The position numbers and the translations under genes were made by a program. Shown in pieces: positions 1 to 56,992 of a stretch of 64,000 nt of DNA; positions within the stretch are counted from its first letter, which is position 1, and each line of letters starts with the position of its first letter. The notes beneath the pieces are model-generated. The model was not told the DNA's origin. It searched no databases and saw nothing but the letters and a program-made list of their open reading frames with translations. Location: NCBI GenBank assembly GCA_017395635.1, contig JAFQOE010000037.1, positions 62,001-126,000 on the forward strand, given 5' to 3'. Origin of the DNA: Lachnospiraceae bacterium (GTDB taxonomy: Bacteria; Bacillota; Clostridia; Lachnospirales; Lachnospiraceae).

Positions 1-246
1 CAGCCTGCAACAGGAATTGAATTAAACAAGACCTCTGCTACACTTAGCAAGGGTAAGACTTTGAAATTGAAAGCTACAATAACACCGGGAAATTCAACAG
101 ATAAGGTAACATTCAAGAGTAGCAAGAAGAGTGTTGCAACTGTTGATAGTAAGGGTGTTGTAACAGCTAAGAAGAAAGGAACAGCAACTATTACAGCTAA
201 GACAACTAGTGGTAAGACTGCAAAATGTAAGATTACAGTAAAATAA
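1..246 (+). CDS. C-terminal end of a BIG2 (Ig-like) surface protein, 5' end outside window
   Basis: The open frame runs from the first base to a TAA at 244-246, so only the last 81 residues are visible. They form one bacterial Ig-like group 2 domain. It opens with the usual ELNKTSATLSKGKTLKLKA pattern, continues with the SSKKSVATVDSKGVVTAKKKGTATITA core, and ends in KCKITVK directly before the stop. BIG2 domains are common repeats in secreted or cell-wall proteins of Lachnospiraceae, so this is probably the tail of an exported protein. Nothing about its catalytic part can be seen. Two other BIG2 modules occur in the window: the end of the GH16 enzyme and a broken minus-strand fragment near 31 kb. 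Confidence 0.85.
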   Translation, partial: QPATGIELNKTSATLSKGKTLKLKATITPGNSTDKVTFKSSKKSVATVDSKGVVTAKKKGTATITAKTTSGKTAKCKITVK

Positions 247-290
247 TCGAACATAAAGTTCTTTTGAATCAGTGACATAAGATAAGAAGG

Positions 291-332
291 TCTCATACTT
301 TATCGATAAGAGATAAAGTATGAGATTTTTTT
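291..332 (+). terminator. Rho-independent terminator of the BIG2 protein gene
   Basis: TCTCATACTTTATC (291-304) pairs perfectly with GATAAAGTATGAGA (312-325) across a short loop and is followed by seven T residues. It lies 45 bp after the stop codon. The next open frame begins at the final base of the T-run and therefore has no room for its own leader. Confidence 0.9.
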
Positions 333-875
333 ATGACAGAAAGCAAGGTTAGCCCGGAATTAAATATAGCCATTGATCTATCGGTGGAAGAGCGTGAGAA
401 AAGCTTGGATTTGAATGTAGGCTATAGCGAAGAGTTTGAAGAGTGGGAATTGATTATACGGTATACAGGAAGTCTCAGTCAGGTTCGGGATGAATTGGGA
501 ATATCCATCGAAGAATTGTTGGGTGGTTATGCGATTGTCCGGATTCCTCAATATCTGATTGGAAGATTATCGGATTATCCGCAGATTAACTATATTGAAA
601 AACCTAAGTCGTTAATACTTGACCAGATGGTGGGAATTACAGCATCCTGTATCAATTCCGTGCGTTTGCCGGATTATAGCCTCAAAGGAAAGGGTGTGTT
701 AGTGGCTTGTTTGGACTCGGGAATTGTGAATGGAAATGATCCTTATTTGTACGGAGAGAAGGTTAGGGCAAGCTTGATACGAGGTGCCAGAAAGTTGCCC
801 TTTCAAGAAAGACAGCCCTCTCCTTTGGTGGGCTGGGGAGCGCTGTGTCTTGTGGACAGTATACCAAGGGGGTAG
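333..875 (+). pseudogene. truncated S8 (subtilisin/Csp-like) peptidase, N-terminal fragment
   Basis: The 180-codon frame resembles the N-terminal prodomain of clostridial S8 (Csp-like) peptidases, with the pattern GYAIVRIP...YPQINYIEKPK, a conserved SCINSVR segment, then KGKGVLVACLDSGI. The Asp of DSG (residue 128) would be the catalytic Asp. After about residue 135 the family pattern stops: the expected His and Ser regions are absent, and the frame ends at 875 in unrelated sequence (GWGALCLVDSIP). A full-length relative is usually well over 500 residues. There is no ribosome-binding site, and the ATG lies in the T-run of the preceding terminator. I read this as a decayed remnant, cut where the downstream accessory island begins. 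The family is fairly certain; the exact break point (about 725-770) is not. Confidence 0.7.
834..866 (+). repeat. degenerate direct repeat, left copy flanking the accessory island
   Basis: Bases 834-866 align without gaps to 4311-4343. Both share TGGGGAGCG, then TGTGT, then ACAGT, then CCA, and 25 of 33 positions match by my count. The two copies are in the same orientation and bracket the DUF6870/ATPase/TOPRIM/DUF6414 genes. They may be old attachment or recombination sites, or ends of a mobile element. Neither reading is proven. Confidence 0.5.
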
Positions 876-888
876 TCTGCCCTTTTTT
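866..888 (+). terminator. weak terminator-like hairpin
   Basis: AAGGG (866-870) can pair with CCCTT (880-884), followed by a short T-run. It lies right after the left copy of the flanking repeat. The five-pair stem is marginal. Confidence 0.35.
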
Positions 889-952
889 ATGATAACCAAG
901 GGGAAATTCAGTTCTTTTATAAGATACAATATGTTTTCTACAACTTTTTAGT

Positions 953-996
953 AATGGGTAAGAAGTCTGATAAGATTTCTTACCCATTGCATTTTT
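953..996 (+). terminator. Rho-independent terminator upstream of the island genes
   Basis: AATGGGTAAGAA (953-964) pairs with TTCTTACCCATT (977-988) and is followed by GCATTTTT. No intact gene precedes it, so it probably belonged to the broken protease or to lost sequence. It insulates the downstream DUF6870 gene. Confidence 0.8.
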
Positions 997-1088
997 AACA
1001 GAATATTTTAGAATAAAAATGGTTAGTCAACCTATAAAGTCAAGAGGTTTTGCTGGTTTGTCCAAAAGAGTAGAAAGGAAGTTTATTT

Positions 1089-1367
1089 ATGAAATATGAA
1101 GAATTAACATTAGAGGATTTAAAAAGAATGCAGGAGGTTGATGTACGAACGGTAAATATTGAAGAATTAACAGATTTGAGAGATATACAAATTGATACAA
1201 AATTACCGGTAGAGGAGAAATTGCGATTATTCGCAGAGCAGACAAATAATTTGTATATTCATAGAATTGGTGATTATGTAGTGAAAGTAAGGTTTCAGGA
1301 GGAAGGTCCAAGTATTGATGATAAGATGGAAGAGTATTTGAGACATCTTGCGGAGATACATATATAA
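1089..1367 (+). CDS. DUF6870-family small protein
   Basis: A 92-residue acidic protein opening with MKYEELTLEDLKRMQEVDVRTVN. This matches my recollection of the DUF6870 family, short proteins with a conserved LEDLKRMQ...DIRTVD start and a conserved DYVVKVRF-like strand (here GDYVVKVRFQEEG near residues 60-72). Members are frequent in conjugative elements and prophages of Lachnospiraceae, and their function is unknown. A GGAAG ribosome-binding site lies 10-14 bp upstream. The stop is about 100 bp before the ATPase gene, which has its own promoter. The gene suggests the island came from a mobile element. Confidence 0.7.
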   Translation: MKYEELTLEDLKRMQEVDVRTVNIEELTDLRDIQIDTKLPVEEKLRLFAEQTNNLYIHRIGDYVVKVRFQEEGPSIDDKMEEYLRHLAEIHI

Positions 1368-1461
1368 AATAAAAACGGAAAAGCTGTAAAAAAATATTGA
1401 ATATATTTCGAAGTGTTGGTATAATATAAAATAAAAACGTATTATTTGTAAATAAAAACGG
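1366..1461 (+). repeat. three short A-rich direct repeats around the operon promoter
   Basis: The 11-12-mer AAATAAAAACG occurs at 1366-1377, 1428-1439 and 1450-1460. The first copy overlaps the stop of the DUF6870 gene, the second directly follows the -10 box, and the third abuts the ribosome-binding site of the ATPase gene. They could be operator half-sites or simple A-rich drift. Confidence 0.5.
1397..1425 (+). promoter_or_regulatory. sigma-A promoter for the ATPase/TOPRIM/DUF6414 operon
   Basis: TTGAAT (1397-1402), a 17-bp spacer and TATAAT (1420-1425), with an extended TG one base before the -10. This is close to consensus and sits 45 bp before the ATPase start codon, so the operon appears to be independently transcribed. 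Confidence 0.75.
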
Positions 1462-1469
1462 AGGTCGTT

Positions 1470-2627
1470 ATGAAACTTTTAAAAATAACAGTAAATGGTC
1501 TGCCACATTTTAAGGATGTTTTGGATATTGATTTTGTAGCACAGCAAAGAGTTGATGATGATGACAAAGAGCGGCTGTGCAATGTGTTTTCCAATATATA
1601 TGTAAATAAAGCGATTTCATTTATTGGTATTAATGCATCTGGAAAAACAACAATATTGAAAGCTATCTCATTTGTTATGAAAATGTTGAATAATGAGTCA
1701 ATAAACAATATTCAAGCAAAAACAATTATGGATGACCTTGATGATAAACAGCAAGTTATTATCACATCCTTTTTCTTTGATGGGACATATATAAATAAGT
1801 TAGAGTCTTTCATTGGAAAAGAAGTAAATGTCTTAGATGGTAGTGAAAAGCTGATTATACGAGATGAAAAATTATGGTCAAAAGAAATTGGTAAAATAAA
1901 AACAAAGAAGAATATGTTTGATTTTGCTGACTCTGATTTAAAGGAAAAAAGGGATAGTGATGAGCAATATTTAATGGATGATGTTAGTATTATTGTTGCA
2001 GAGAATAAGAAAAAAAATATGAGTATTTTTATCTGCGATATGTTGGAGTGGACAGATCATAATATTTTAAATGTTCTGGGGAGATTTCCTAAAGAACTTT
2101 TAACTTTTCTGGATCCTAGTATAGAATATCTTGAATGTAGTTTGAAGGAAAAGAAAGTTGATATTCGATTGAAGTTTTACGGAAAAGAAGAAATAGTTAT
2201 TAATAGTCCAAGAATTTTGGAAAATTATCTTTCATCAGGAACGATAAAAGGTTTAGGGGTCTTTATGAGCGCGACATTCGCTTTTATTGAAGGAGGATAT
2301 CTTATTATTGATGAAATCGAGAATCATTTTAATAGAGAAATTGTAGCTACATTAATTCGGTTTTTCATGGATAAAAAAGTGAATAAAAATGGAGCAACAA
2401 TTCTATTTTCAACGCATTATTCAGAATTATTAGACGAATTCGATAGAAATGATAGCATTTATGTTGTTAGAAACAAAGAGGGAATTGGAGTAGAAAATTT
2501 GTCTAATATCTTGAAAAGAAATGATATTAAAAAAAGTGAAGTATATGATAGTGATTATCTTGGAGGCACTGTGCCGGCATATGAAGCATACATGGCTCTG
2601 AAAAAAGTACTAATTAGTGTAAAGTAA
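1470..2627 (+). CDS. AAA/ABC-type ATPase of a putative defence operon (AbiLi/RloA-like)
   Basis: A 385-residue SMC/ABC-like ATPase of the AAA_15/AAA_21 type. Visible motifs are Walker A GINASGKTT (residues 53-61), a signature-like LSSGT at 254-258, Walker B YLIIDEIE with D281 and E282, and a switch histidine in STHYSELL (H316). The middle (about 90-230) is charged and variable, as in related overcoming-lysogenization-defect, RloA and AbiLi proteins. The start is ATG 1470 with a GGAGG site 5 bp upstream. The next gene begins 12 bp after the stop and encodes a TOPRIM-like partner, the usual arrangement for two-component ATPase/TOPRIM anti-phage modules. Hydrolysis coupled to activation of the partner is inference. 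Exact subfamily is uncertain; ATPase identity is firm. Confidence 0.8.
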   Translation: MKLLKITVNGLPHFKDVLDIDFVAQQRVDDDDKERLCNVFSNIYVNKAISFIGINASGKTTILKAISFVMKMLNNESINNIQAKTIMDDLDDKQQVIITSFFFDGTYINKLESFIGKEVNVLDGSEKLIIRDEKLWSKEIGKIKTKKNMFDFADSDLKEKRDSDEQYLMDDVSIIVAENKKKNMSIFICDMLEWTDHNILNVLGRFPKELLTFLDPSIEYLECSLKEKKVDIRLKFYGKEEIVINSPRILENYLSSGTIKGLGVFMSATFAFIEGGYLIIDEIENHFNREIVATLIRFFMDKKVNKNGATILFSTHYSELLDEFDRNDSIYVVRNKEGIGVENLSNILKRNDIKKSEVYDSDYLGGTVPAYEAYMALKKVLISVK

Positions 2628-2639
2628 GGGGGCTGTAGT

Positions 2640-3167
2640 ATGGGAAGATATGTTGCCTGTATTTGTGAAGGTGGTGCAGAAAGAGCAATATTAGATTTGC
2701 TACTTGATAATCACAAATTGATCTTCGAACGCAAAGAGTTGATAGAGGAAGAAGTCTTAAGGTGCAGAAGTGGTAAGGAATTTGAGGAAAGATACTTAAG
2801 AAAAGGATTTACAGATAAAATTACCATTTATCGTATTTTGGATTCGCGTAGTGAGAGATTCAATTTGAGTAAAGCATACATGCAAAAAGTAGATGTGAAA
2901 AATGTCATAACGGCTCCGGAAATCGAGAAACTAATTATTTGCAATGAGAAAAAGTATAAAGATTACGAAAGAGAAGCAAGAAAAAATCCAAGACTAAAGC
3001 CTAGCATTTATTGTAAGTCAATATTAAAGTTTAATAATGTAAAAAGTTATGATTTTGTAACAGAATATTTTTCGGATATGCAGGTTTTATTGAATGCATT
3101 ACATGAATATCGGAGAGTTTCAAAGGTCAGAGCTGATGAGATGACGATATGGGATTTGTTACGATAA
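2640..3167 (+). CDS. TOPRIM/RloB-like protein, partner of the ATPase
   Basis: A 175-residue protein starting MGRYVACICEGGAERAILDLLL. A hydrophobic strand followed by CEGxxE (E10, G11, E14) is the start of a TOPRIM-like fold, as in RloB and OLD nucleases. A second strand ending in ILDSR (D68, R70) could supply the metal-binding acid, and PEIEKLIICNE (94-103) resembles the conserved downstream acidic helix. As I recall, the RloB family includes lactococcal AbiLii, needed for phage abortive infection beside an AbiLi ATPase. The protein is somewhat short for RloB. Its gene lies 12 bp after the ATPase gene and 42 bp before the DUF6414-like gene, so the three look co-transcribed. Nuclease activity is inferred, not shown. 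Confidence 0.6.
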   Translation: MGRYVACICEGGAERAILDLLLDNHKLIFERKELIEEEVLRCRSGKEFEERYLRKGFTDKITIYRILDSRSERFNLSKAYMQKVDVKNVITAPEIEKLIICNEKKYKDYEREARKNPRLKPSIYCKSILKFNNVKSYDFVTEYFSDMQVLLNALHEYRRVSKVRADEMTIWDLLR

Positions 3168-3209
3168 AATACAGTATTGTATAGCTAAATAAAAAGAGGT
3201 GATCAGCAA

Positions 3210-4112
3210 ATGAAACAATTTTTGTATCTTGATACAGATATTATTAATTCAATTATTGCTCAAACAGAGAAAGGTCTTGTACAAAGTTTGTCTGATGAGG
3301 AAGTTTCTACTGAAACGGAAACAGACAGTTTAAATGCGTCTATAAAAGGTACAGGAACGATTGGTGGCTCGATAGTAAAATTGGCTAAAGCAGAAGCAAA
3401 TCTTTCTGGAAGCTTAGAGAGTATTGAAGGGGGAAGTTTATCATCGACTTCACGACAGATTATTAGTAAAACACTACATGATGCGGCTTTTGATATTGCA
3501 TATGCATACATTAGTCCATCTGAAATTGAGTTACAAAGTCAAAGTAATGATGAGACAGGTAATTATGTTGAATTAACAAGAGTATTTGATTTTGTTGATT
3601 TGGATTATCTTGAGAAACTTTTTGAAAAAGACGGTATAATTGAATTTATTAAGAAAACTTCAGCAGAACAAATTGAAGCAGAAGCAGAAAAAGTTAAAGA
3701 AGGACACAATAGAGAACAATTGCGTAAAGCAGGCATAAATTTTAAGCAGGAAATAAAAAAGGCGATTGATGCAAATAATAAACAATATGATGATATTGCG
3801 GTAATCATAAAAGCTATGCGAGGTTTAATACCATACAATCGAATGTTGATTTCTAGTGATGGATATCTGGTGCCGTTAAACACAAAGTATTTCCGAGTGG
3901 ATCCTTTAGACTTAGGATTTAAGTATGGTGGAGAAATTACATGTGTTGGAATGATTACAAACATAATAGGAGAAGACACAAATCCTAATGATGAAAATAA
4001 CATTTTTGCTACAGTGCAGTTTACAGCAAATGAAGTGTTGAGAAAATTACTACCGACGAGCGAAAATAATTTATGTGTTATACACCCGATTGCTATTTAT
4101 TATGGTAGATAG
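3210..4112 (+). CDS. DUF6414-like protein, third gene of the putative defence operon
   Basis: A 300-residue soluble protein. Its N-terminus MKQFLYLDTDIINSIIAQTEKGL matches my memory of the DUF6414 family signature (YLDtd.inS..AQ.e.Gl). A Ser/Gly-rich stretch (about 30-80: GTGTIGGSIVKLAKAEANLSGS) follows, then a mixed domain with an acidic helix (about 140-190) and a C-terminal strand-rich part ending in VIHPIAIYYGR. No catalytic motif, signal peptide or membrane segment is visible. Ribosome-binding site GAGGTGA precedes ATG 3210. The family has no established function. Its place directly after an ATPase/TOPRIM pair suggests a sensor, regulator or effector of the same system, which is inference. 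Confidence 0.6.
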   Translation: MKQFLYLDTDIINSIIAQTEKGLVQSLSDEEVSTETETDSLNASIKGTGTIGGSIVKLAKAEANLSGSLESIEGGSLSSTSRQIISKTLHDAAFDIAYAYISPSEIELQSQSNDETGNYVELTRVFDFVDLDYLEKLFEKDGIIEFIKKTSAEQIEAEAEKVKEGHNREQLRKAGINFKQEIKKAIDANNKQYDDIAVIIKAMRGLIPYNRMLISSDGYLVPLNTKYFRVDPLDLGFKYGGEITCVGMITNIIGEDTNPNDENNIFATVQFTANEVLRKLLPTSENNLCVIHPIAIYYGR

Positions 4113-4530
4113 TTTGAATTATAACAATCTTTAATGATGTTGAAAAGTCGAGGAGCGGTTCCTTGGCTTTTTTACTTAACATTAACTTCCCATCAATTTT
4201 TACTGAACTTAGCAGACATTTACCATTACCCCAACGAAGATATGCGGGTTAGCGAGAATTTCTTTAAAAAAGTTAAAAAAGTTCTTAGCAATAACTTGAC
4301 ATTAAAGGGGTGGGGAGCGTTGTGTGTAAAGAACAGTTTGCCATCATAAGAGAAAATGGCTATTAGAAGAGATAGATTAAGAAATGTGTTTTTTGTTTGA
4401 AAAATACATTAACTTGAATATCGCTTTATGATAAAATAAAGGTATATATCAGAATTAGATAGTAGTGGTTGAAATATGGATAGAGTATAGTTAAGAGCAA
4501 CAGCTTTTTACATGAATGAGGTGACACAAT
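4113..4530. other. gene-free right edge of the accessory island
   Basis: This 418-bp AT-rich stretch holds the right copy of the degenerate flanking repeat (4311-4343) and a possible small hairpin (GCCAT 4340-4344 with ATGGC) just after it. A 71-codon frame from 4134 has no ribosome-binding site and ends in a peptide (GWGALCVKNSLP) similar to the end of the broken protease frame, because both cross the repeat. I see no convincing promoter for the next gene. Confidence 0.5.
4311..4343 (+). repeat. degenerate direct repeat, right copy flanking the accessory island
   Basis: Ungapped match to 834-866 at 25 of 33 positions, same orientation. It lies about 200 bp after the DUF6414-like gene and so marks the likely right boundary of the island. 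Confidence 0.5.
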
Positions 4531-5151
4531 TTGAAAATTTTAGTAGATGCGGATGCCTGTCCGGTTGTTCGTAACATAGAAGAAATTGCAGAGCAATATA
4601 ATATCCCTGTGTGTCTGTTTTGTGACACCAATCACGTTCTTACTTCATCCTACAGTGAGGTAAAGATAATCGGTGCAGGTGCAGATGCGGTTGACTTTGC
4701 TCTAGTGAATCAATGCCAAAAGGGTGACTTAGTGGTGACCCAGGATTATGGGGTGGCAGCTATGGCCTTGGGGAAGGGCGCTTATGGAATTCACCAGAGT
4801 GGCAAATGGTACACCGATGAGAATATTGATCGTATGCTGATGGAACGTCATATGGCGAAAAAGGCTCGCATGGGAAAGAGGAAACATCATTTGAAAGGAT
4901 TTGCTAAACGGACGGAGCAGGATAACCGGATTTTTGAGGAATCTTTTACTAACCTTGTTCGAAAAATTCTTTGTGAAGAAGGTCATATGAGGGCTGTAAT
5001 TCGTAGTAGTATATGTACGGGGGAGAAGGTTGCCGGATTTAAGAATTTACACACAGGTAAATTTGAAGATATGATGTTAATTAAGACAGAAAAGGATGTG
5101 GAGTCTTTTCAGAAGAAGTATGGGGTTCACACGATAGTAAAAGAGTATTAA
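4531..5151 (+). CDS. YaiI/YqxD (UPF0178) family protein with C-terminal extension
   Basis: A 206-residue protein beginning KILVDADACPVV, the hallmark of UPF0178, with the later family segments GADAVDFAL, GDLVVTQDYGVAA and RMGKRKHHLKGFAKRT. The family has a PIN/NYN-like nuclease fold with acidic residues at D7, D9 and in the TQDYG segment, but its substrate is unknown. The start is TTG 4531, supported by GAGGTG 7 bp upstream; no ATG fits. Family members usually stop at about 150 residues. Here about 55 extra residues follow (from GHMRAVIRSS), with no motif I recognise. The gene stands alone. Confidence 0.85.
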   Translation: MKILVDADACPVVRNIEEIAEQYNIPVCLFCDTNHVLTSSYSEVKIIGAGADAVDFALVNQCQKGDLVVTQDYGVAAMALGKGAYGIHQSGKWYTDENIDRMLMERHMAKKARMGKRKHHLKGFAKRTEQDNRIFEESFTNLVRKILCEEGHMRAVIRSSICTGEKVAGFKNLHTGKFEDMMLIKTEKDVESFQKKYGVHTIVKEY

Positions 5152-5285
5152 TGTAATAAATTAGGATAAATATAGTTAAATATATAAAGTTTTGTATTTT
5201 AATTAAAAGTTTAAGTTTGATGGAGAGTATGTCAAACATAAACAGAAGAAGTTTTATAAAGCATATAGAAAATGGAGAGGGAACA

Positions 5286-6878
5286 ATGAGAGATAATTGG
5301 GGAAAGAGATTCAGTGTTTTTTTGCTAACTGCATGTATAGCATTGACCGGATTCAATGTATGTCCGAATCAGGTACAAGCGACAGCGACAGAATTTACAG
5401 GAACACATTTTTCGGATGGATTTAATTCGTATGATAAAGATGCATGGCATAAAGCTCGTAATTATTCGAATGGCAGTGTGTTTTATTGTACATGGAGAGA
5501 AGCGAATATTGTTTTCAATGATGGAATCATGGAAATGTCCATCAAGGAGGATACCGGCGAAACAGAATATGAAAAGTATTCGGGGGGCGAATATCGAACA
5601 GATCACTTCTATCATTATGGATTGTATCAAGTGAATATGAAACCTATTAAGAATGATGGAGTTGTAAGTTCCTTTTTTGTCTATACAGGTCCTTCAGATA
5701 ATAGGAATTGGGATGAAATTGATATTGAATTCATTGGGAAAGATACCACCAAGGTACAGTTTAATTACTTTACGGATGGTGTAGGTGATCATGAGTATTT
5801 ATACGATTTGGGTTTTGATGCATCAAAAGAATATCATACCTATGGATTTTATTGGGCAAATGATTATATTGCATGGTATGTAGATGGCAAAGAGGTTTAT
5901 AGAACTCCAGAGTCGGAAGCAAACATTATTCCGAATGAATCGGGTAGAATTATGATGAATGTATGGCCCGGAAAAGGAGTAGATGCCTGGCTGAATCCAT
6001 ATGATGGTAATACACCGATTACCGCATATTACGATTGGATGTCGTGGGACGCATCAAAAGGAACAAGTGAAGAGCCAAGTACGAGCGAAGAACCAAGTAC
6101 GAGCGAAGAACCGACTACAAGCGAAGAAGCAAATACGAGCGAAGAACCAAAGACAAGTGAAGAACCGAGTAAAGGTGAAGAACCGACCACGAGTGATAAA
6201 ACCGACACAGATGATCAGAGTAAGAATTTTAAGGTGGAGGAAATTACAGAGGGAATATCTACTGTTCAGGCGACACAGTTAATCACGTCAGATGAAACAG
6301 ACAATGATTTCAAAGGTACTACATTTAGTTTGTTAAGTCTACGAGTAGCAAAGACAGCCAAGATATCTCAGAAGTTAAAGTGGAATAAGGTTAAAGGTGC
6401 AAAGGGTTACATGATTTTTGGCAGTAAATGCGGCACAAAGATGAAGTTATTAAAGACTATCCCTAAAGGTTCTACCACAAGCTGGACGCGAAAGCAGTTA
6501 AAGAAGAATACATATTACAAATACCTGGTACTTGCATATAAAGTGGTGGATGGAGAAAAAGTTACACTTTCTGCATCGAAAATGGTACATGCTCCGACAA
6601 CAGGCGGAAAATATTGTGATATCAAGTCTGTGAAAGTCAATAAATCAAGCGTGTCTTTAAAGAAGGGAAAAACGTTCTCACTGAAAACTACCGCAGTGAA
6701 AACAAAGAGTAAGCAAATTCTTAAGAATCACAGAAAGATATCCTATGAATCTACCAATGAAAAGGTAGCAACTGTATCAAAGAAAGGAAAAATCACTGCA
6801 AAAAAGAAGGGAACCTGTTATGTGTATGCCTATGCACAAAATGGTGCATTTAAGAAAATTGAGGTAACAGTAAAATAA
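5286..6878 (+). CDS. secreted GH16 endo-beta-glucanase (lichenase/laminarinase-like) with FN3-like and BIG2 domains
   Basis: A 530-residue extracellular hydrolase. Start ATG 5286 is preceded by GGAGAGGG and gives a signal peptide of about 32 residues (KRFSVFLLTACIALTGF...QVQA). Residues about 35-258 form a GH16 jelly roll with the catalytic motif WDEIDIEF: E144 nucleophile, D146, E148 acid/base. The compact domain and C-terminal MMNVWPG...YYDWM resemble lichenases (beta-1,3-1,4-glucanases), so cereal-type mixed-linkage glucan is the likely substrate. A TSEEPS repeat linker follows (260-307), then a fibronectin III-like domain (about 360-435) and a terminal BIG2 domain (about 447-530). No LPXTG anchor is seen. 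The gene is monocistronic and ends at a hairpin. Confidence 0.88.
   Translation: MRDNWGKRFSVFLLTACIALTGFNVCPNQVQATATEFTGTHFSDGFNSYDKDAWHKARNYSNGSVFYCTWREANIVFNDGIMEMSIKEDTGETEYEKYSGGEYRTDHFYHYGLYQVNMKPIKNDGVVSSFFVYTGPSDNRNWDEIDIEFIGKDTTKVQFNYFTDGVGDHEYLYDLGFDASKEYHTYGFYWANDYIAWYVDGKEVYRTPESEANIIPNESGRIMMNVWPGKGVDAWLNPYDGNTPITAYYDWMSWDASKGTSEEPSTSEEPSTSEEPTTSEEANTSEEPKTSEEPSKGEEPTTSDKTDTDDQSKNFKVEEITEGISTVQATQLITSDETDNDFKGTTFSLLSLRVAKTAKISQKLKWNKVKGAKGYMIFGSKCGTKMKLLKTIPKGSTTSWTRKQLKKNTYYKYLVLAYKVVDGEKVTLSASKMVHAPTTGGKYCDIKSVKVNKSSVSLKKGKTFSLKTTAVKTKSKQILKNHRKISYESTNEKVATVSKKGKITAKKKGTCYVYAYAQNGAFKKIEVTVK
6063..6206 (+). repeat. 18-bp coding repeat (TSEEPS linker) in the glucanase
   Basis: Eight in-frame 18-bp units encode variants of Thr-Ser-Glu-Glu-Pro-Ser. 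Early units are nearly identical and later ones diverge (KGEEPT, TSDKTD). This is a flexible interdomain linker prone to slippage in copy number. Confidence 0.85.
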
Positions 6879-6886
6879 GTAAGCTA

Positions 6887-6930
6887 AAGGGGATATTGTC
6901 AAAGAAATACATGTTTGACAATGTCCCCTT
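6887..6930 (+). terminator. terminator hairpin after the glucanase gene
   Basis: AAGGGGATATTGTCAAA (6887-6903) pairs with TTTGACAATGTCCCCTT (6914-6930) with a single mismatch. The T-run afterwards is weak (GTTGAATT), so termination may be partial. Confidence 0.7.
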
Positions 6931-6979
6931 GTTGAATTAGTAGCGGTCGTTATGGAGTTTTTTGTCGAAAAGTTTGTCC

Positions 6980-7009
6980 TTGTCACGAGAAGAGTTGCTA
7001 TGTTATACT
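6980..7009 (+). promoter_or_regulatory. sigma-A promoter for the small membrane protein gene
   Basis: TTGTCA (6980-6985), 18-bp spacer, TATACT (7004-7009) with a TG extension. It lies 50 bp before the chosen start codon at 7059. Confidence 0.6.
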
Positions 7010-7058
7010 CACCTTGAATATAGCATTTTATGGGATGCAGAAAGGGAAGGATGCAAGG

Positions 7059-7493
7059 ATGAAAAAGACATATCGAATGATTATAACTGTATTAGCATTA
7101 TTGGTTATGGTGGTATCGGGAATTCGTATTGATAATTCTAGTGATGTGTTTGTTTCAGATGCAGATTTTTCTTATGTTTCGGATGCTTCGTCAATGTTAA
7201 AGGCTGAATCTTATGAGGTGAATAGAAGATATAGTCAGATTGAACAGCCGAGTTGTTGGAATGGGCATGGTTCGGCTCGTCTTTCTTCCTCTTTATTCAG
7301 ACGTTCTCAGACTCTTGAAAGAAGTCATGAGAGATATGAAATGTCAATTGCTACTTTGGATAGTATATTCAAAGTTGTTTTATTTTCAATTATTATGATT
7401 CTATTTGCAGCAGGCGGTACAGGGCTTTCTATGCCGATTCGATGCCTGTTGTGTTATATCCATGGACTAGATGGAAAAAAGAGAATAGCCTAA
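7059..7493 (+). CDS. small membrane/secreted protein of unknown function
   Basis: I do not recognise this 144-residue protein. ATG 7059 is chosen over upstream starts because GGGAAGG lies 8 bp before it and the promoter lies just upstream. The N-terminus (MKKTYRMIITVLALLVMVVSG) is a signal peptide or membrane anchor. A Ser-rich, partly basic middle follows (about 30-95), then a second hydrophobic helix near residues 105-125 (VVLFSIIMILFAAGGTGL) and a short basic tail. This arrangement would place the middle outside the cell if both helices span the membrane. It precedes the Na/Pi cotransporter by 79 bp and could be co-transcribed with it. Confidence 0.6.
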   Translation: MKKTYRMIITVLALLVMVVSGIRIDNSSDVFVSDADFSYVSDASSMLKAESYEVNRRYSQIEQPSCWNGHGSARLSSSLFRRSQTLERSHERYEMSIATLDSIFKVVLFSIIMILFAAGGTGLSMPIRCLLCYIHGLDGKKRIA

Positions 7494-7572
7494 TTATGTT
7501 CAATGTTGTATACGGAATGCAATTATGCGTTTCGTCTTATTTTCGTGTGCAAAAAAGGAGAAATGAAAAGAG

Positions 7573-9213
7573 ATGAAGTTCACAGACATAATGGGACTAT
7601 TAGGAGGATTGGCGCTATTTTTATATGGAATGCAGATGATGAGCGCTGGTTTGGAAGCAGCCGCTGGTAACAAGATGAAGCAGATTTTGGAAAAGCTTAC
7701 TGCAAATCGTTTTTTAGGTGTTTTAGTTGGTGCTGTTATTACAGCAATTATTCAGTCATCATCAGCAACCACTGTAATGGTTGTAGGTTTTGTTAATTCG
7801 GGAATGATGACTTTACGCCAGGCAGTATGGATTATTATGGGTGCTAATATTGGAACCACTATTACGGGACAGTTGATTGCGTTAGATGTTGGTGCGATTG
7901 CTCCTATTATTGCGTTTTTAGGTGTTGCAGTTGTTGTATTTTCAAAAAATGTAAAATTACATCATATTGGTAATATTTTTGCCGGATTGGGTATCCTATT
8001 TATTGGTATGGATATGATGGGGGCTGCAATGAAGCCTTTACAGAATTCACAAGCTTTTGTGGATATGTTAACAACATTTGAAAATCCGGTTCTTGGTATT
8101 CTTGCAGGAACAATCTTTACAGCTATTATCCAATCCTCTTCAGCGTCTGTTGGTATTTTACAGGCTTTGTCAGCTAGTGGGATTATTGGACTTTCAAGTG
8201 CTGCTTATGTATTGTTCGGTATGAATATTGGTACATGTATTACGGCGTTCCTTGCATCCATCGGAACGAATCGTAATGCGAGACGTACAACAGTGATACA
8301 TGTCTCATTTAATGTGATTGGTACATGTATCTTTACAACCCTTTGTATACTTACACCATTGGTTGCATTTATGGAGAGTTTAGCACCTGGTAATGGTCCG
8401 GCGCAGATTGCAAACTTGCATACTATATTTAATATTGTAACAACCTGTTTGTTGATTCCGTTTGGTAATCTTCTTGCAAAGTTTTCTGAGAAGATTCTTC
8501 CTGATGTAGAGGAAGAGGATGGTGTGATTAAGCTTCAGTATCTTCCGAGTCTCAAGAGCATTGAAGAAGACAGACTTGGTTTGTCTGCAATCAGTATGGA
8601 CGCTACAAAGAATGAGATTCATCGCATGATGGTGATGGCAAAGAAGAATATTTCTTTGAGTTTTGATGCATTTATGAATCGTAATACAGATTTGATTGAA
8701 GAGGTTGATCAAACGGAAGAATACATTGATTTCTTAAACAAAGAGATTTCAAAGTATATATCAAAAGTAATTACCCATGAACGTAATGAATACGGAAGTA
8801 AGATTTTGAATGCATATTTCAAGATTACAAGTAATGTGGAACGTATTGGTGATCACGCAATCAATATTTGTGGTTATTCAAAGATGTTAAAAGAGAGAAA
8901 TATCCAGTTTTCTGAGATTGCACAGAAGGAAATTCGAGAGATGAAAGCCATATGTGATTCTTTGATGGAGCATTTGTTGAATCCGGAAGCAGATGCAGTA
9001 GAAAGCTATGGTGTGATTGCATCCATGGAACAGAAGATTGATGATATGACAAAACAGTATAGAGAGAACATGTTAGAGAGAATTTCAAAGGGTACATGTA
9101 CAGATGAAGGAAGTATTTTGTATTCTGAGATGTTGACAGACTTTGAGCGAATTGGAGATCATGCTTTGAATATTTCAAAGGAAATGACAGAAATTCAGAT
9201 TGCTCAACAATAA
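7573..9213 (+). CDS. Na+/phosphate cotransporter family protein with C-terminal PhoU domain
   Basis: A 546-residue membrane protein of the NptA/YjbB type. The N-terminal 310 residues contain two inverted Na_Pi_cotrans repeats, each with the QSSSA signature (IIQSSSATTVMVVG and IIQSSSASVGILQA) and flanking glycine-rich helices. Residues about 340-546 form a cytoplasmic PhoU-like helical bundle with the paired acidic motif ERIGDHA occurring twice (near 435 and 530). The family moves inorganic phosphate with sodium, and the PhoU part is thought to control flux. ATG 7573 follows an AGGAG at 12 bp. The 297-bp gap after it is largely the foldback element. No pho regulator is adjacent. Confidence 0.9.
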   Translation: MKFTDIMGLLGGLALFLYGMQMMSAGLEAAAGNKMKQILEKLTANRFLGVLVGAVITAIIQSSSATTVMVVGFVNSGMMTLRQAVWIIMGANIGTTITGQLIALDVGAIAPIIAFLGVAVVVFSKNVKLHHIGNIFAGLGILFIGMDMMGAAMKPLQNSQAFVDMLTTFENPVLGILAGTIFTAIIQSSSASVGILQALSASGIIGLSSAAYVLFGMNIGTCITAFLASIGTNRNARRTTVIHVSFNVIGTCIFTTLCILTPLVAFMESLAPGNGPAQIANLHTIFNIVTTCLLIPFGNLLAKFSEKILPDVEEEDGVIKLQYLPSLKSIEEDRLGLSAISMDATKNEIHRMMVMAKKNISLSFDAFMNRNTDLIEEVDQTEEYIDFLNKEISKYISKVITHERNEYGSKILNAYFKITSNVERIGDHAINICGYSKMLKERNIQFSEIAQKEIREMKAICDSLMEHLLNPEADAVESYGVIASMEQKIDDMTKQYRENMLERISKGTCTDEGSILYSEMLTDFERIGDHALNISKEMTEIQIAQQ

Positions 9214-9255
9214 TTACACATGCATGTCGACCAACTTGCATAAGTAGATTGTAAG

Positions 9256-9463
9256 TAGGCGTTTGCGAAACTTAAGTTTGTATTGTAATGCTTGCGCAAA
9301 TTTAACATACCAACGCAGGACGTTTGCACTTGCCACAATGCGTAGCGGTACTAAGTTCGACAATGTCTCACTAAGTACCGACGGATTGTGAAGCACCTGC
9401 TTATGGTACTTGTTAAACTTGCGCAAGGCAATGAAAGTTTTTGGTGAGTTTTGCAAACGCCTA
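9256..9463 (+). mobile_element. foldback MITE-like element, full copy 1
   Basis: A 208-bp element bounded by TAGGCGTTTGCGAAACT on the left and the inverse of TAGGCGTTTGCAAAACT on the right (terminal inverted repeats with one mismatch in 17). The two halves are complementary along most of their length, with shared blocks such as CTTGCGCAA, TTTAACA, GCAGG and CGGTACT, so a transcript would fold into one long hairpin. No coding capacity is present. Copy 2 at 51657-51862 is about 90% identical by eye. No perfect target-site duplication is evident, although TAGATTGTAA and TAGATTATAA flank the two ends. It separates the Na/Pi and Ca2+-ATPase genes. Confidence 0.8.
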
Positions 9464-9510
9464 ATAGATTATAAAGAATGTGGGGTGGGTTCATGAAAGG
9501 AGAGATAGAC

Positions 9511-12123
9511 ATGAAAGATATCTATCAAATGAAGACAGATGAGCTTTATAGTCATATAGGTTCCAATGAGAAAGGTTTGACTAGTGACGAAGTAAGGGAT
9601 AGAAAAGAGAAGTATGGAGACAATGTTTTAGAAGAAGGTAAGAGAAAGACTGCTTTGCAGGTGTTTTTTGAGCAGTTTTGTGATTTGCTTGTAATCATAT
9701 TGATTATTGCAGCAGTGATTTCCATGTTGTCCGGTAATATAGAAAGTACGATTGTTATCTTTGTAGTTATTATTTTGAATGCTATTTTGGGGACGGTTCA
9801 GTATGTGAAAGCGGAGAAATCGTTGGATTCTTTGAAAGCATTATCCTCTCCGCATGCAAAGGTGATACGTGATGGTAATAAAATAGAAATACCGTCGAAA
9901 GAAGTTGTGCCGGGAGATTTGTTATTGTTAGAAGCTGGAGATATGATTGTGGCAGATGGTAGAGTTCTACACAATTATTCCTTGCAGGTAAACGAAAGTT
10001 CTTTGACCGGTGAGTCCACGAATGTAGATAAAGCGGATGTGGTATTAGAAGGTGAGCTTCCTTTGGGAGATCGCATTAATATGGTGTATTCCGGTACCCT
10101 TGTTACCTATGGCCGTGCAGAGGTTCTTGTGACCGGAACGGGTATGCAGACAGAAATGGGTAAGATTGCAGGATTGATGAATGCAACCAAGGAAAAGCGT
10201 ACACCGTTACAGGTAAGTTTAGATGGATTTAGCAAACGTCTTGCCATTATTATCATAGCGATTTGTATTGTTGTATTTGCGTTGCAGATGTACCAAGGAA
10301 CGGCCTTGTTGGATTCCTTGATGTTTGCGGTTGCTTTGGCGGTAGCTGCAATTCCGGAAGCATTAGGTTCCATTGTAACCATTGTGCAGGCGATGGGAAC
10401 ACAGAAAATGGCTGCAGACAACGCGATTATGAAGGAGCTTAAGGCAGTAGAAAGTCTAGGGTGTGTATCGGTTATATGTTCGGATAAGACAGGTACCTTA
10501 ACACAGAACAAAATGACGGTAACAGATGTTTATATTAATGGTGCATGCATTAAGCCTGAGGATTTGGATATTACAGTACAGCTTCATCGATATTTGCTAT
10601 ATACAGCAATTTTGAATAATGATTCCAGTATTCGTGATGGAAAGGGAATTGGCGACCCTACAGAGTCCTGTTTATTAATCATGGCAGAAAATGCAGGTCT
10701 TACTAAGAAAGGTATTGATGAAGAAGTAATCCGGGATATGATGCCAAGAATGGAAGAGCTTCCGTTTGATTCCGACAGAAAGCTTATGAGTACGAAGTAT
10801 CATATTCATGGTATACCAACCGTGCTTACCAAGGGAGCGGTGGATGTCTTGTTAGACCGCATTGACAACATTGCTACGGTAGATGGTGTTCGTCCTTTGT
10901 CAGAGCAGGACAAAGAAGCAATTATTGCACAAAATCAACGCTTTTCGGAAAATGGATTGCGTGTTTTGGCATTTGCATATAAGGAAGTAGATGCGAATGA
11001 AACCTTATCTTTTGAAAATGAAAATGGATATACTTTCATTGGTTTAGTGGCGATGATTGATCCGCCAAGAGAGGAATCCAAGCAGGCGGTAGCGGATGCA
11101 AAGGAAGCCGGCATTAAGACGATTATGATAACTGGTGACCACAAGGTAACTGCTTCTGCAATTGCAAAGCAAATTGGGATTTACAGCGATGGGGATTTGG
11201 CGGTAACGGGAACAGAGTTAGATGCAATGTCAGATGAGATGTTGGATCAGATTCTTCCACAGATTTCAGTATATGCAAGAGTTTCGCCAGAGAACAAGAT
11301 TCGAATTGTAGATGCATGGCAAAGAAGAGGTAATATTGTTTCGATGACCGGAGATGGTGTCAATGATGCACCGGCTCTTAAGAAGGCGGATATTGGTGTT
11401 GCTATGGGAATTACCGGTACAGAGGTATCGAAAGATGCATCGGCAATGATTTTGTCGGATGACAATTTTGCAACGATTATCAAGGCAGTATTGAATGGTA
11501 GAAATGTATATCGCAATATCAAAAATGCGATTCAGTTCTTACTTTCCGGTAACATGGCAGGTATCTTTACGGTATTATATTGTTGTCTGCTGGCACTTCC
11601 AGCACCATTTAAACCGGTGCACCTATTGTTTATCAATCTGTTGACAGACTCCTTGCCTGCTCTTGCAATTGGTATGGAGCCAACAGATAAGAAATTGCTA
11701 CAAGATAAACCGAGAGATCCGAAGACCGGTATTATGACAAAGGATTTTGTAATGCATTTGTTGGGATATGGTTTGATGATAGCGATTGTTACTATGATAG
11801 CATTTTATATTGGGTTAGGTCCGCAAAAGGATGCAGCCATGGCAAGTACAATGGCATTTGCTACATTAACTTTGGCGAGATTGCTCCATGGTTTTAATTG
11901 TAGAAGTAATCAGTCCATTTTCCGAATCGGATTTATGAGCAATGTTTGGAGTGTTGGAGCATTTATCTTGGGTGTGGCATTTTTAGCAATTGTATTATTT
12001 GTACCGTTTATGAAAAAATTATTTTTTGTGTCAACCTTATCGGGGGGGCAACTTGTATCTATTATAGGATTGGCAATTTTACCAACCGTTTCGATTCAGA
12101 TTACAAGGGCTTTACGAAAATAA
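9511..12123 (+). CDS. P-type Ca2+-transporting ATPase (PMCA/SERCA-like)
   Basis: An 870-residue P2-type ATPase that exports Ca2+ at the expense of ATP. The sequence shows the N-terminal cation-ATPase domain, the actuator motif LTGES, TM4 with AAIPEAL, the phosphorylation motif SDKTGTLT (D325), nucleotide-binding segments, TGDGVNDAPALKKADIG, and about ten membrane helices. Start ATG 9511 is favoured because AGGAG lies 8 bp upstream; ATGs at 9478 and 9493 lack sites. TM4 PEAL and TM6 NLLTDSLPALAIG fit a single-site Ca2+ pump like Listeria LMCA1. The Ca2+/Na+ antiporter gene begins 39 bp downstream, so the two form a calcium-export operon. The foldback element ends 47 bp before the start codon and may contain or separate its promoter. 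Confidence 0.93.
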   Translation: MKDIYQMKTDELYSHIGSNEKGLTSDEVRDRKEKYGDNVLEEGKRKTALQVFFEQFCDLLVIILIIAAVISMLSGNIESTIVIFVVIILNAILGTVQYVKAEKSLDSLKALSSPHAKVIRDGNKIEIPSKEVVPGDLLLLEAGDMIVADGRVLHNYSLQVNESSLTGESTNVDKADVVLEGELPLGDRINMVYSGTLVTYGRAEVLVTGTGMQTEMGKIAGLMNATKEKRTPLQVSLDGFSKRLAIIIIAICIVVFALQMYQGTALLDSLMFAVALAVAAIPEALGSIVTIVQAMGTQKMAADNAIMKELKAVESLGCVSVICSDKTGTLTQNKMTVTDVYINGACIKPEDLDITVQLHRYLLYTAILNNDSSIRDGKGIGDPTESCLLIMAENAGLTKKGIDEEVIRDMMPRMEELPFDSDRKLMSTKYHIHGIPTVLTKGAVDVLLDRIDNIATVDGVRPLSEQDKEAIIAQNQRFSENGLRVLAFAYKEVDANETLSFENENGYTFIGLVAMIDPPREESKQAVADAKEAGIKTIMITGDHKVTASAIAKQIGIYSDGDLAVTGTELDAMSDEMLDQILPQISVYARVSPENKIRIVDAWQRRGNIVSMTGDGVNDAPALKKADIGVAMGITGTEVSKDASAMILSDDNFATIIKAVLNGRNVYRNIKNAIQFLLSGNMAGIFTVLYCCLLALPAPFKPVHLLFINLLTDSLPALAIGMEPTDKKLLQDKPRDPKTGIMTKDFVMHLLGYGLMIAIVTMIAFYIGLGPQKDAAMASTMAFATLTLARLLHGFNCRSNQSIFRIGFMSNVWSVGAFILGVAFLAIVLFVPFMKKLFFVSTLSGGQLVSIIGLAILPTVSIQITRALRK

Positions 12124-55243: not shown

Positions 55244-56992
55244 ATGTTAAAAACATTAGGAAAACAGTTATACGGATTTCGAAAAGATTCTGTATTGACG
55301 CCATGCTTTATGATATTGGAAGTTGCAATGGAAATGATTATCCCATTGATGATGGCTTCTATTATTGATAATGGTGTAGAGGTTGGAAATATTAACCACA
55401 TTTATAAGATGGGAATTTTCATGGTGATTGCTGCAGCGATTGGTTTGTTTGCAGGACTTATGGGTGGTAAACATGGAGCTAGGGCCTCAGCCGGTTTGGC
55501 AAGAAATTTGCGTCGTTCTATGTATGAAAACATTCAGACCTTTTCTTTTGCTAATATCGATAAATTTTCAACGGCTGGTCTGGTTACCCGTATGACTACT
55601 GATGTGACAAATATTCAGAATGCATATCAGATGATTCTTCGTATGTGTATTCGTTCGTTGATCAGTTTTGTGTGTGCTATGTGTATGGCATTTTTGATTA
55701 GTCCTAAGCTTGCAAGTGTATATCTTGTTGCAGTGTTAGTGTTGGGCACCGTGTTAGGGATTTTGGTTCCGAGAGCGATGAAATATTTTAATAATGTATT
55801 TCCGAAATATGATGACTTAAATGAGAGTGTACAGGAAAATGTATCTGCTATTCGTGTGGTAAAAGCATTTGTTCGTGAGGATTACGAAAGAGAACGTTTT
55901 TCAAAAGCGAGTAACGCGTTGTATGGAATGTTTGTAAAGGCTGAATCCATTGTAGCATTGAATGGTCCACTTATGCAGATTACAATTTATTCTTGTATTT
56001 TGTTAATTTCATGGATTGGTGCTAAGATGGTGGTACATTCAGAACTTGCTACGGGAGAGCTTATGAGTTTGTTTGCTTATTGTATGAACATTTTGATGAG
56101 CTTAATGATACTATCGGTAATGTTTGTTATGATTACATTGAGTCTTGCAAGTGCAAAACGTATTGCGGAAGTATTGAATGAAAAGAGTAGTCTAACAAAT
56201 CCGGATAATCCGGTGATGGAAGTTTTGGATGGTAGTATCACATTTGAACATGTGAATTTTAACTATCATGAAGCAACGAAGGATTGGGTGTTGAACGATA
56301 TTAATTTGGAGATTTCTTCTGGTGAAACCATCGGTATTATTGGAGGAACAGGAAGTTCTAAGACTACTTTTGCAAATATGATTAGCAGAATTTATGACGT
56401 ATCAGAAGGTAGTGTTAAGGTTGGTGGTAGAGATGTTCGCGAATATGACTTGGAAACACTTCGTAATCAGGTAGCGGTTGTTTTGCAGAAGAATGTGTTA
56501 TTTTCGGGAACTATATTAGACAACCTTCGTTGGGGTGATATGAATGCAACTGAGGAAGAATGTATTCGAGCTTGTAAACTTGCTTGTGCAGATGACTTTA
56601 TTCAGAGTTTTCCGGATGGATATAACACCTACATTGAACAAGGTGGTACGAATGTATCCGGTGGTCAGAAACAACGTATTTGTATTGCAAGGGCATTGCT
56701 TAAGAAACCTAAGATTTTGATATTGGATGATTCTACCAGTGCGGTAGATACTGCAACGGATGCGAGAATTTGTAAAGCATTCCGTGAGGAGATTCCGGAT
56801 ACTACCAAGATTATTATTGCACAGAGAATTGCCAGTGTGGAACATGCTGATCGAATTATTGTTATGGAAGACGGCGCTATCAATGGTTTTGGTACACATG
56901 AGGAATTGCTTGCCAACAATGAGATATATCAGGATATTTATGAATCTCAGACTGGTGGATGTGGTGATTTTGATGAAGGAGGTGACAAGTAA
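55244..56992 (+). CDS. heterodimeric ABC exporter subunit 1 (permease-ATPase)
   Basis: A 582-residue half-transporter. About six helices in the N-terminal 310 residues form the exporter-type membrane domain, followed by an ABC domain. Walker A reads GGTGSSKTT (Ser for the usual second Gly), signature VSGGQKQRICIARAL, Walker B ILILDDSTSAVD. The Asp in place of the catalytic Glu after Walker B marks a degenerate site, as in heterodimeric exporters such as TM287/288. The stop overlaps the start of subunit 2 by one base. GGAGTGA precedes ATG 55244. Substrate is unknown. Confidence 0.92.
   Translation: MLKTLGKQLYGFRKDSVLTPCFMILEVAMEMIIPLMMASIIDNGVEVGNINHIYKMGIFMVIAAAIGLFAGLMGGKHGARASAGLARNLRRSMYENIQTFSFANIDKFSTAGLVTRMTTDVTNIQNAYQMILRMCIRSLISFVCAMCMAFLISPKLASVYLVAVLVLGTVLGILVPRAMKYFNNVFPKYDDLNESVQENVSAIRVVKAFVREDYERERFSKASNALYGMFVKAESIVALNGPLMQITIYSCILLISWIGAKMVVHSELATGELMSLFAYCMNILMSLMILSVMFVMITLSLASAKRIAEVLNEKSSLTNPDNPVMEVLDGSITFEHVNFNYHEATKDWVLNDINLEISSGETIGIIGGTGSSKTTFANMISRIYDVSEGSVKVGGRDVREYDLETLRNQVAVVLQKNVLFSGTILDNLRWGDMNATEEECIRACKLACADDFIQSFPDGYNTYIEQGGTNVSGGQKQRICIARALLKKPKILILDDSTSAVDTATDARICKAFREEIPDTTKIIIAQRIASVEHADRIIVMEDGAINGFGTHEELLANNEIYQDIYESQTGGCGDFDEGGDK

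Follow-up and report, generated by a model that had tools for sequence, protein, structure and literature searches.

Several antiphage systems combine an ATPase with a protein of the TOPRIM type. According to a passage of PMC12409363, the ATPase of PARIS (AriA) sequesters the TOPRIM protein (AriB) and frees it upon sensing phage proteins, after which tRNA is cut, and the same source counts AbiL among the ATPase-TOPRIM systems. Here we describe a locus of a Lachnospiraceae bacterium in which an AbiLi-type ATPase gene is directly followed by a gene for a 175-residue TOPRIM-like protein, both of them enclosed with a DUF6870 gene and a DUF6414 gene in a 3501-bp block at the 3′ end of a csp gene, which encodes a Csp-type subtilase. 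The locus lies in a stretch of 64,000 nucleotides (GenBank assembly GCA_017395635.1, contig JAFQOE010000037.1, positions 62,001 to 126,000), referred to below as the window. We consider it probable, on the whole, that the block is a trans-mobilised cassette of csp ends whose cargo is a two-gene abortive-infection module of an ATPase and a TOPRIM-like protein, with the DUF6414 gene as a passenger and DUF6870 as an accessory factor.

The closest described carriers are the staphylococcal cassette chromosome (SCC) elements, which use large serine recombinases, insert at the 3′ end of a gene and leave direct repeats between tandem cassettes, some of which lack a recombinase. PMC10434264 reports CRISPR-Cas excised as part of SCCmec.

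Gene content of the locus

The window is part of contig C65; the assembly comprises 3.34 Mb and 197 contigs. Four genes make up the locus:
1089-1367, + strand: DUF6870 gene (PF21757, E 1e-25), of a family found beside large serine recombinases
1470-2627, + strand: AbiLi/AAA_21-type ABC ATPase gene, likely a sensor (385 residues; Pfam, PADLOC and alignment)
2640-3167, + strand: gene of the TOPRIM-like small protein, likely a nuclease effector (175 residues; residue conservation in 32 aligned sequences)
3210-4112, + strand: DUF6414 gene of the family of DolA, most likely a passenger (300 residues; PF19952, E 1e-33; no match to PADLOC DolA)

The last three open reading frames (ORFs) are intact, share a strand and are separated by 12 and then 42 bases. 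An initial annotation, made from the letters of the DNA, had already recognised the ATPase with its Walker A, signature and Walker B motifs, the 175-residue protein with a CEGxxE start, the DUF6414-like protein of 300 residues and an adjoining DUF6870 gene on an apparent mobile element, all of which held up; what it overlooked is that the four genes share one bounded block, 827-4327. It had also placed the genes behind a near-consensus promoter. The site exists at 1397 (TTGAAT-17-TATAAT, a good match with TG ahead of the second hexamer), yet promoter-like sites number 25 against 19.2 (standard deviation 3.8) in shuffled sequences, hardly above chance, so that it counts as weak evidence.

The ATPase and the small protein as a conserved pair

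The ATPase belongs to Pfam AAA_21 (E 3e-14) and matches the PADLOC model of AbiLi over residues 2-368 (E 2.5e-32) as well as a PADLOC model of AriA (E 1.3e-13). Its Walker A (GINASGKT), signature (YLSSGTIKG), Walker B (GGYLIIDEIENHFN) and H-loop (STHY) motifs all have core residues that are invariant or almost so among 16 aligned sequences, L019 having been omitted from the alignments because it contains a stop codon. Many RloB genes of the class likewise lie behind ATPases, which score up to 4e-16 on a profile of the window ATPase in a small test set.

When one genome per species was scanned for the 175-residue protein, the ATPase gene stood immediately 5′ of its gene at 22 of 23 loci, the exception (L024) being a 43-residue partial match without an ATPase. 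The hosts come from several phyla and include Lachnospiraceae, Oscillospiraceae, Ruminococcaceae, Fusobacteriaceae, Synergistaceae, Sulfurovum, Psychromonas and Bacillales. A second search yielded 29 loci besides that of the window, 23 of them with the ATPase and the remaining six all partial matches; the two sets may share members. Spacing within the pair ranges from a 15-base gap to a 17-base overlap (18 loci tabulated), and the pair was also found on three plasmids. Judged by gene order across these genomes, the ATPase and the 175-residue protein are a conserved two-gene unit, in line with the initial annotation, which had likened them to ATPase/TOPRIM pairs of the AbiL and OLD kind.

The small protein begins with CICEGGAE, and E10, G11, E14, D68, T91, P93, E94, E96 and P121 are invariant among 32 aligned sequences. 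The glutamate motif of TOPRIM is therefore present (E10 and E14 in 32/32), and in a second acidic motif E72, four residues past D68, is nearly invariant. The order of these elements, from the initial glutamate motif through an acidic strand and a block with a terminal conserved glutamate to a PS near the end, is like that of RloB, and by motif we regard the protein as TOPRIM-like.

Several results weigh against reading it as a TOPRIM nuclease. The DxD motif is absent, since D68 is invariant but residue 70 is mostly R across the 32 sequences (D-S-R); profile comparison of the small protein does not support homology with RloB (hhalign, 1.8%); the RloB family of Pfam is reached at 0.011 in one of the 32 sequences, while the window protein itself matches neither RloB nor AriB in Pfam or PADLOC; and no relative was found in PDB. 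Because the RloB profile, Pfam and PDB are unsupportive and DxD is replaced by D-S-R, we use the term TOPRIM-like and treat the fold as unproven. The lack of RloB, AriB or PDB matches and the unconserved DxD would also suit a small protein that is no nuclease, in a pair serving regulation, housekeeping or plasmid maintenance. We find this unlikely, as the order of genes and of motifs is like that of RloB-type systems, and as the protein is patchily distributed (a profile search matched it in 34 of 397 family genomes, the window's included) and several of its genes are broken, both of which fit a costly accessory system.

The gene is broken or shortened at seven loci (L021, L107, L090, L089, L088, L108 and L023) through base loss, deletion or a foreign insert. 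We had entertained a programmed frameshift or phase variation at an A-tract of this gene and rejected it, since the examined broken copies differ in their cause; ordinary decay is the simpler account.

Taken as an ATPase with a TOPRIM-like partner, the pair most likely acts in the manner of AbiL or PARIS, with the ATPase as sensor and the small protein as nuclease. The ABC ATPase would keep the small protein inactive, detect a phage product and then release or activate its partner, which may cleave nucleic acid, either tRNA or DNA, and so bring about abortive infection.

The surroundings of the pair speak for a defence role with less force. The initial annotation had looked to enrichment in defence islands, and at a cut-off of 1e-10 the flanking proteins used, 105 of 125 listed, match 137 PADLOC models, with type I and IV restriction, AbiEi and reverse transcriptases among them; a control set of 105 proteins, which includes csp genes (11 subtilase matches), matches 65 models. 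These figures count models rather than proteins, the control proteins too match GajB and reverse transcriptases, and the flanks are mostly unrelated to each other, with no Pfam family in more than 3 of the 105, all of which tells against a defence context; the enrichment is suggestive only. The ATPase and the DUF6414 protein both have matches among PHROGs families of unknown function (phrog_5836 at 4e-33, phrog_9699 at 2e-11). Relatives of the small protein were absent from the viral contigs and phage records searched, and three pattern matches to DUF6414 in viral contigs were not confirmed. Elsewhere in the window genome, on contig C113 (L115), an RloB gene stands behind an ATPase gene and is followed directly by a serine recombinase gene.

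The DUF6414 gene is most likely a passenger

The initial annotation had proposed DUF6414 as a fixed third partner of the pair. The DUF6414 profile matched at none of 45 other loci of the pair or pair fragments (2176 ORFs; positive control 9/9 loci), and conversely the pair was not found within 1.5 kb at any of 24 other DUF6414 loci, three of which score below the family cut-off. The neighbourhood counts thus bear out the constancy of the ATPase and small-protein pair and not the association with DUF6414, which we reject as a fixed partner. The family is present in 24 of 391 genomes of the class, the window's included, and as far as sampled the trio occurs only in one cassette, represented by the window and three loci about 99% identical to it (L002, L003 and L004).

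Nor is the family new to defence. Three of ten DUF6414 proteins scanned (L025-L027) match PADLOC DolA at 1e-81 to 1e-83, and the family is already tied to defence via DolA of the Dodola system; the other seven, the window's among them, do not match this model. The AAA+ protein of L025 is PADLOC DolB (1.5e-132), and a DolB-like neighbour related to it occurs at 6 of the 24 other DUF6414 loci, while the window holds no DolB-like ORF in its 64 kb.

We find it improbable that the trio is one functional defence system with DUF6414 as a necessary part and the combination recent in this lineage. The shared strand, the 42-base gap and a possibly single transcript would be expected of such a system, the trio is intact and almost unchanged in four genomes, and some DUF6414 proteins elsewhere adjoin an ATPase, DolB; but the four copies amount to one recent cassette with too few differences to test selection, and the counts of 0/45 and 0/24 separate the two parts from either side. 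Most likely the DUF6414 gene rides as a passenger, and DolA is its known relative.

A bounded cassette at a csp 3′ end

The block and its borders comprise the following features:
333-875, + strand: remnant csp (Csp-type subtilase) gene, with prodomain and C-terminal tail (CspB_prodomain, 1.5e-31)
827-4327, + strand: bounded mobile-like cassette (3501 bp; identity with L002, L003 and L004 of 98.6-99.7%)
830-870, + strand: left csp 3′-end repeat (attL-like), containing GGGGAGCGCTGTGT at 835-848
4289-4311, + strand: right-end motif CAATAACTTGACATTAAAGGGGT, which recurs in other csp-end cassettes and at the ends of some recombinase modules
4307-4349, + strand: right csp 3′-end repeat (attR-like), read as a displaced local csp end

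The copy in L004 is cut at its left end. Outside the block, the adjoining 826 and 1673 bases of the window have no DNA match in L002, L003 or L004, and the similarity of csp on the left side is at the protein level only; the csp protein beside the L003 cassette and the intact csp of the window genome share only 39.5% identity and may be paralogues. The sequence GGGGAGCGYTGTGT occurs at 835 and at 4312, two copies where 0.01 would be expected in 64 kb, and the rest of the assembly has none at ≤1 mismatch. Each repeat reads as a csp 3′ end (G-W-G-A-L-C). In the left copy the local csp is joined to a 3′ end brought by the element, and the right copy, preceded by the constant bases CAATAACTTGACATTAAA, varies between genomes, as would be expected of a displaced local csp end.

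Contig C65 carries two csp genes some 5 kb from each other, the remnant and an intact gene at 55400-57202 of that contig (L086:5401-7203). Compared with the latter, the remnant has lost 420 codons in frame, between its D-S-G and Y-G-I points. Both ends of this loss fall at points where elements appear to have inserted elsewhere, and the right junctions of the L258 triad element and of the L002 and L222 elements read as insertions into csp-like genes at the corresponding points. Positions 951-990, close to the left cassette end, form a strong 18-pair hairpin with a T-tail that is terminator-like; an Rfam scan of window positions 1-10000 gave no match.

No recombinase gene was found within 827-4327. 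The block would be a non-autonomous integrative cassette that entered the csp 3′ end, probably through large serine recombinases provided in trans, as in SCC islands. As cargo it would carry the module of ATPase and TOPRIM-like protein, together with DUF6414 as a passenger in its own right and DUF6870 as an accessory factor of the recombinases.

Arrays, recombinase triads and DUF6870

The relation of such cassettes to recombinases is seen in L002, where three large serine recombinases are followed by a csp end, a cassette of the window type, a second csp end, a Schlafen AlbA_2 gene, a third csp end and two genes. The recombinases measure 551, 555 and 529 residues, the first and third assigned by Pfam and the second by similarity; these three upstream ORFs had been considered as csp copies, which was rejected. 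A comparable array in G644 holds four right-end motifs behind a triad whose members share 50%, 33% and 37% identity with those of L002. One gene of the G644 array appears TIR-like by eye. An AlbA_2 gene also lies at a csp end in G494, and a similar 444-residue gene was found in G592. Further triads (L254-L258, L281 and L284) occupy varied chromosomal sites, which suggests that large serine recombinase triads constitute a wide family of such elements. By eye, the right-end motif lies ≤420 bases past the third recombinase in L002, G644 and L281, with weaker versions in L256 and L258, among nine triads inspected.

DUF6870 provides a second connection. The family has 18 matches in 12 of 45 genomes of the family, and a large serine recombinase lies 3′ on the same strand at 15 of the 18 loci (14 of 17 independent ones, as L262 and L278 overlap), so that DUF6870 is a companion of large serine recombinases and may set the direction of recombination. 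The loci without an adjacent recombinase are the window, L279 (a partial match) and L276, where DUF6870 lies behind an apparent subtilase gene and is followed by a 1451-residue gene near the contig end. At L280:3171-8353 a subtilase-like gene, DUF6870 and a 1451-residue protein without a PADLOC match stand in order shortly before the contig ends, perhaps a second recombinase-less cassette. At L005 a 33-residue DUF6870-like fragment lies just 5′ of the ATPase, at the contig edge.

Other observations weigh against recombinase-driven insertion at csp ends. The right-end motif (≤1 mismatch) is found at only 9 places in 6 of 299 genomes of the family, the window's included, against 2 places for a reversed control; it was not seen within 420 bases past the third recombinase in 4 of the 9 triads; and the triad of the window genome itself, on contig C114 with DUF6870 in front, lies near an rsmG-like gene (by eye) rather than at csp. 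A second csp end is present at just 1 of 56 scored csp loci (G494; 4 of 60 loci were open-ended and excluded, and the poor cases L149 and L180 were kept in the 56). In L006, a pair with ATPase and small protein 89% and 91% identical to those of the window lies behind csp, and neither DUF6870 nor a second csp end was found there.

It is conceivable that the block spread between csp genes by homologous recombination or another mobile element rather than by large serine recombinases. Csp genes are common enough to supply the homology (185 of 299 genomes of the family), the cassette has no recombinase gene, and elements with other left ends also enter csp: a foreign csp tail, EDVIIRLH, follows G-Y-G at three csp loci and a related one, DGVIIRLR, at a fourth (L151, L192, L198 and L184), and another element type seems to be involved because the ORFs behind L151 and L184 resemble, by eye, relaxase-bearing elements with relaxase and ParM-like genes. 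We nonetheless give this route a low probability, since the shared repeats are both short and divergent, since other cassettes and the surroundings of some recombinase triads also carry the right-end motif, and since recombinases head the arrays in L002 and G644.

Retaining trans-mobilisation by large serine recombinases, a broader proposal stands for us at about an even balance, namely that Lachnospiraceae-type gut bacteria harbour undescribed SCC-like islands in which triads, assisted by DUF6870 as a directionality or accessory factor, act in trans to mobilise defence cassettes that lack a recombinase and stack them at csp 3′ ends, the pair and the DUF6414 gene being the cargo of one such cassette. 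The triads may also recombine sites inside csp, as the 420-codon in-frame deletion of the window csp suggests. This carrier, a recombinase-less, triad-linked and SCC-like cassette at csp, is the best new lead of the analysis and the larger find. It offers a possible route by which small defence cassettes without an integrase pass between gut bacteria, and the junction sequences make that route directly testable; it also gives a first hint of function for DUF6870, while the conserved two-gene module is now set apart from its neighbour DUF6414, a probable passenger with the known relative DolA.

Comparison with known systems

In searches of the open-licence literature of PubMed Central, which is only part of the whole, no paper was found on RloA, RloB and TOPRIM combined, on DUF6414 or on DUF6870, and none among those listed showed recombinase triads or cassettes of this kind. 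Among described systems, the pair is like AbiL and RloA-RloB in that its ATPase matches the AbiLi model, the small-protein gene lies directly 3′ and the motif order is similar to that of RloB; it is unlike them in that the small protein is not RloB by Pfam or hhalign. With PARIS it shares separate genes for an ABC ATPase and a TOPRIM-like protein and a match of the ATPase to the AriA model, whereas the small protein has no match to AriB. We therefore do not file the pair as a member of AbiL or PARIS. OLD and Gabija are set apart by their fusion of ATPase and TOPRIM, as the window has two separate ORFs. As for Dodola (DolA-DolB), the DUF6414 protein of the window shares the family of DolA (PF19952), but it misses the DolA model and has no adjacent DolB-like ORF.

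For the carrier, the likeness is to SCC. The window cassette lies at a gene 3′ end with direct repeats at both ends, and tandem composite arrays are found in L002 and G644, though not in the window itself. In contrast to SCC, the target is csp and not rlmH, the recombinases stand three in a row and are joined by DUF6870, and the hosts are of Lachnospiraceae type; the window cassette has no large serine recombinases of its own, a triad heading the same array in L002 and another lying elsewhere in the window genome.

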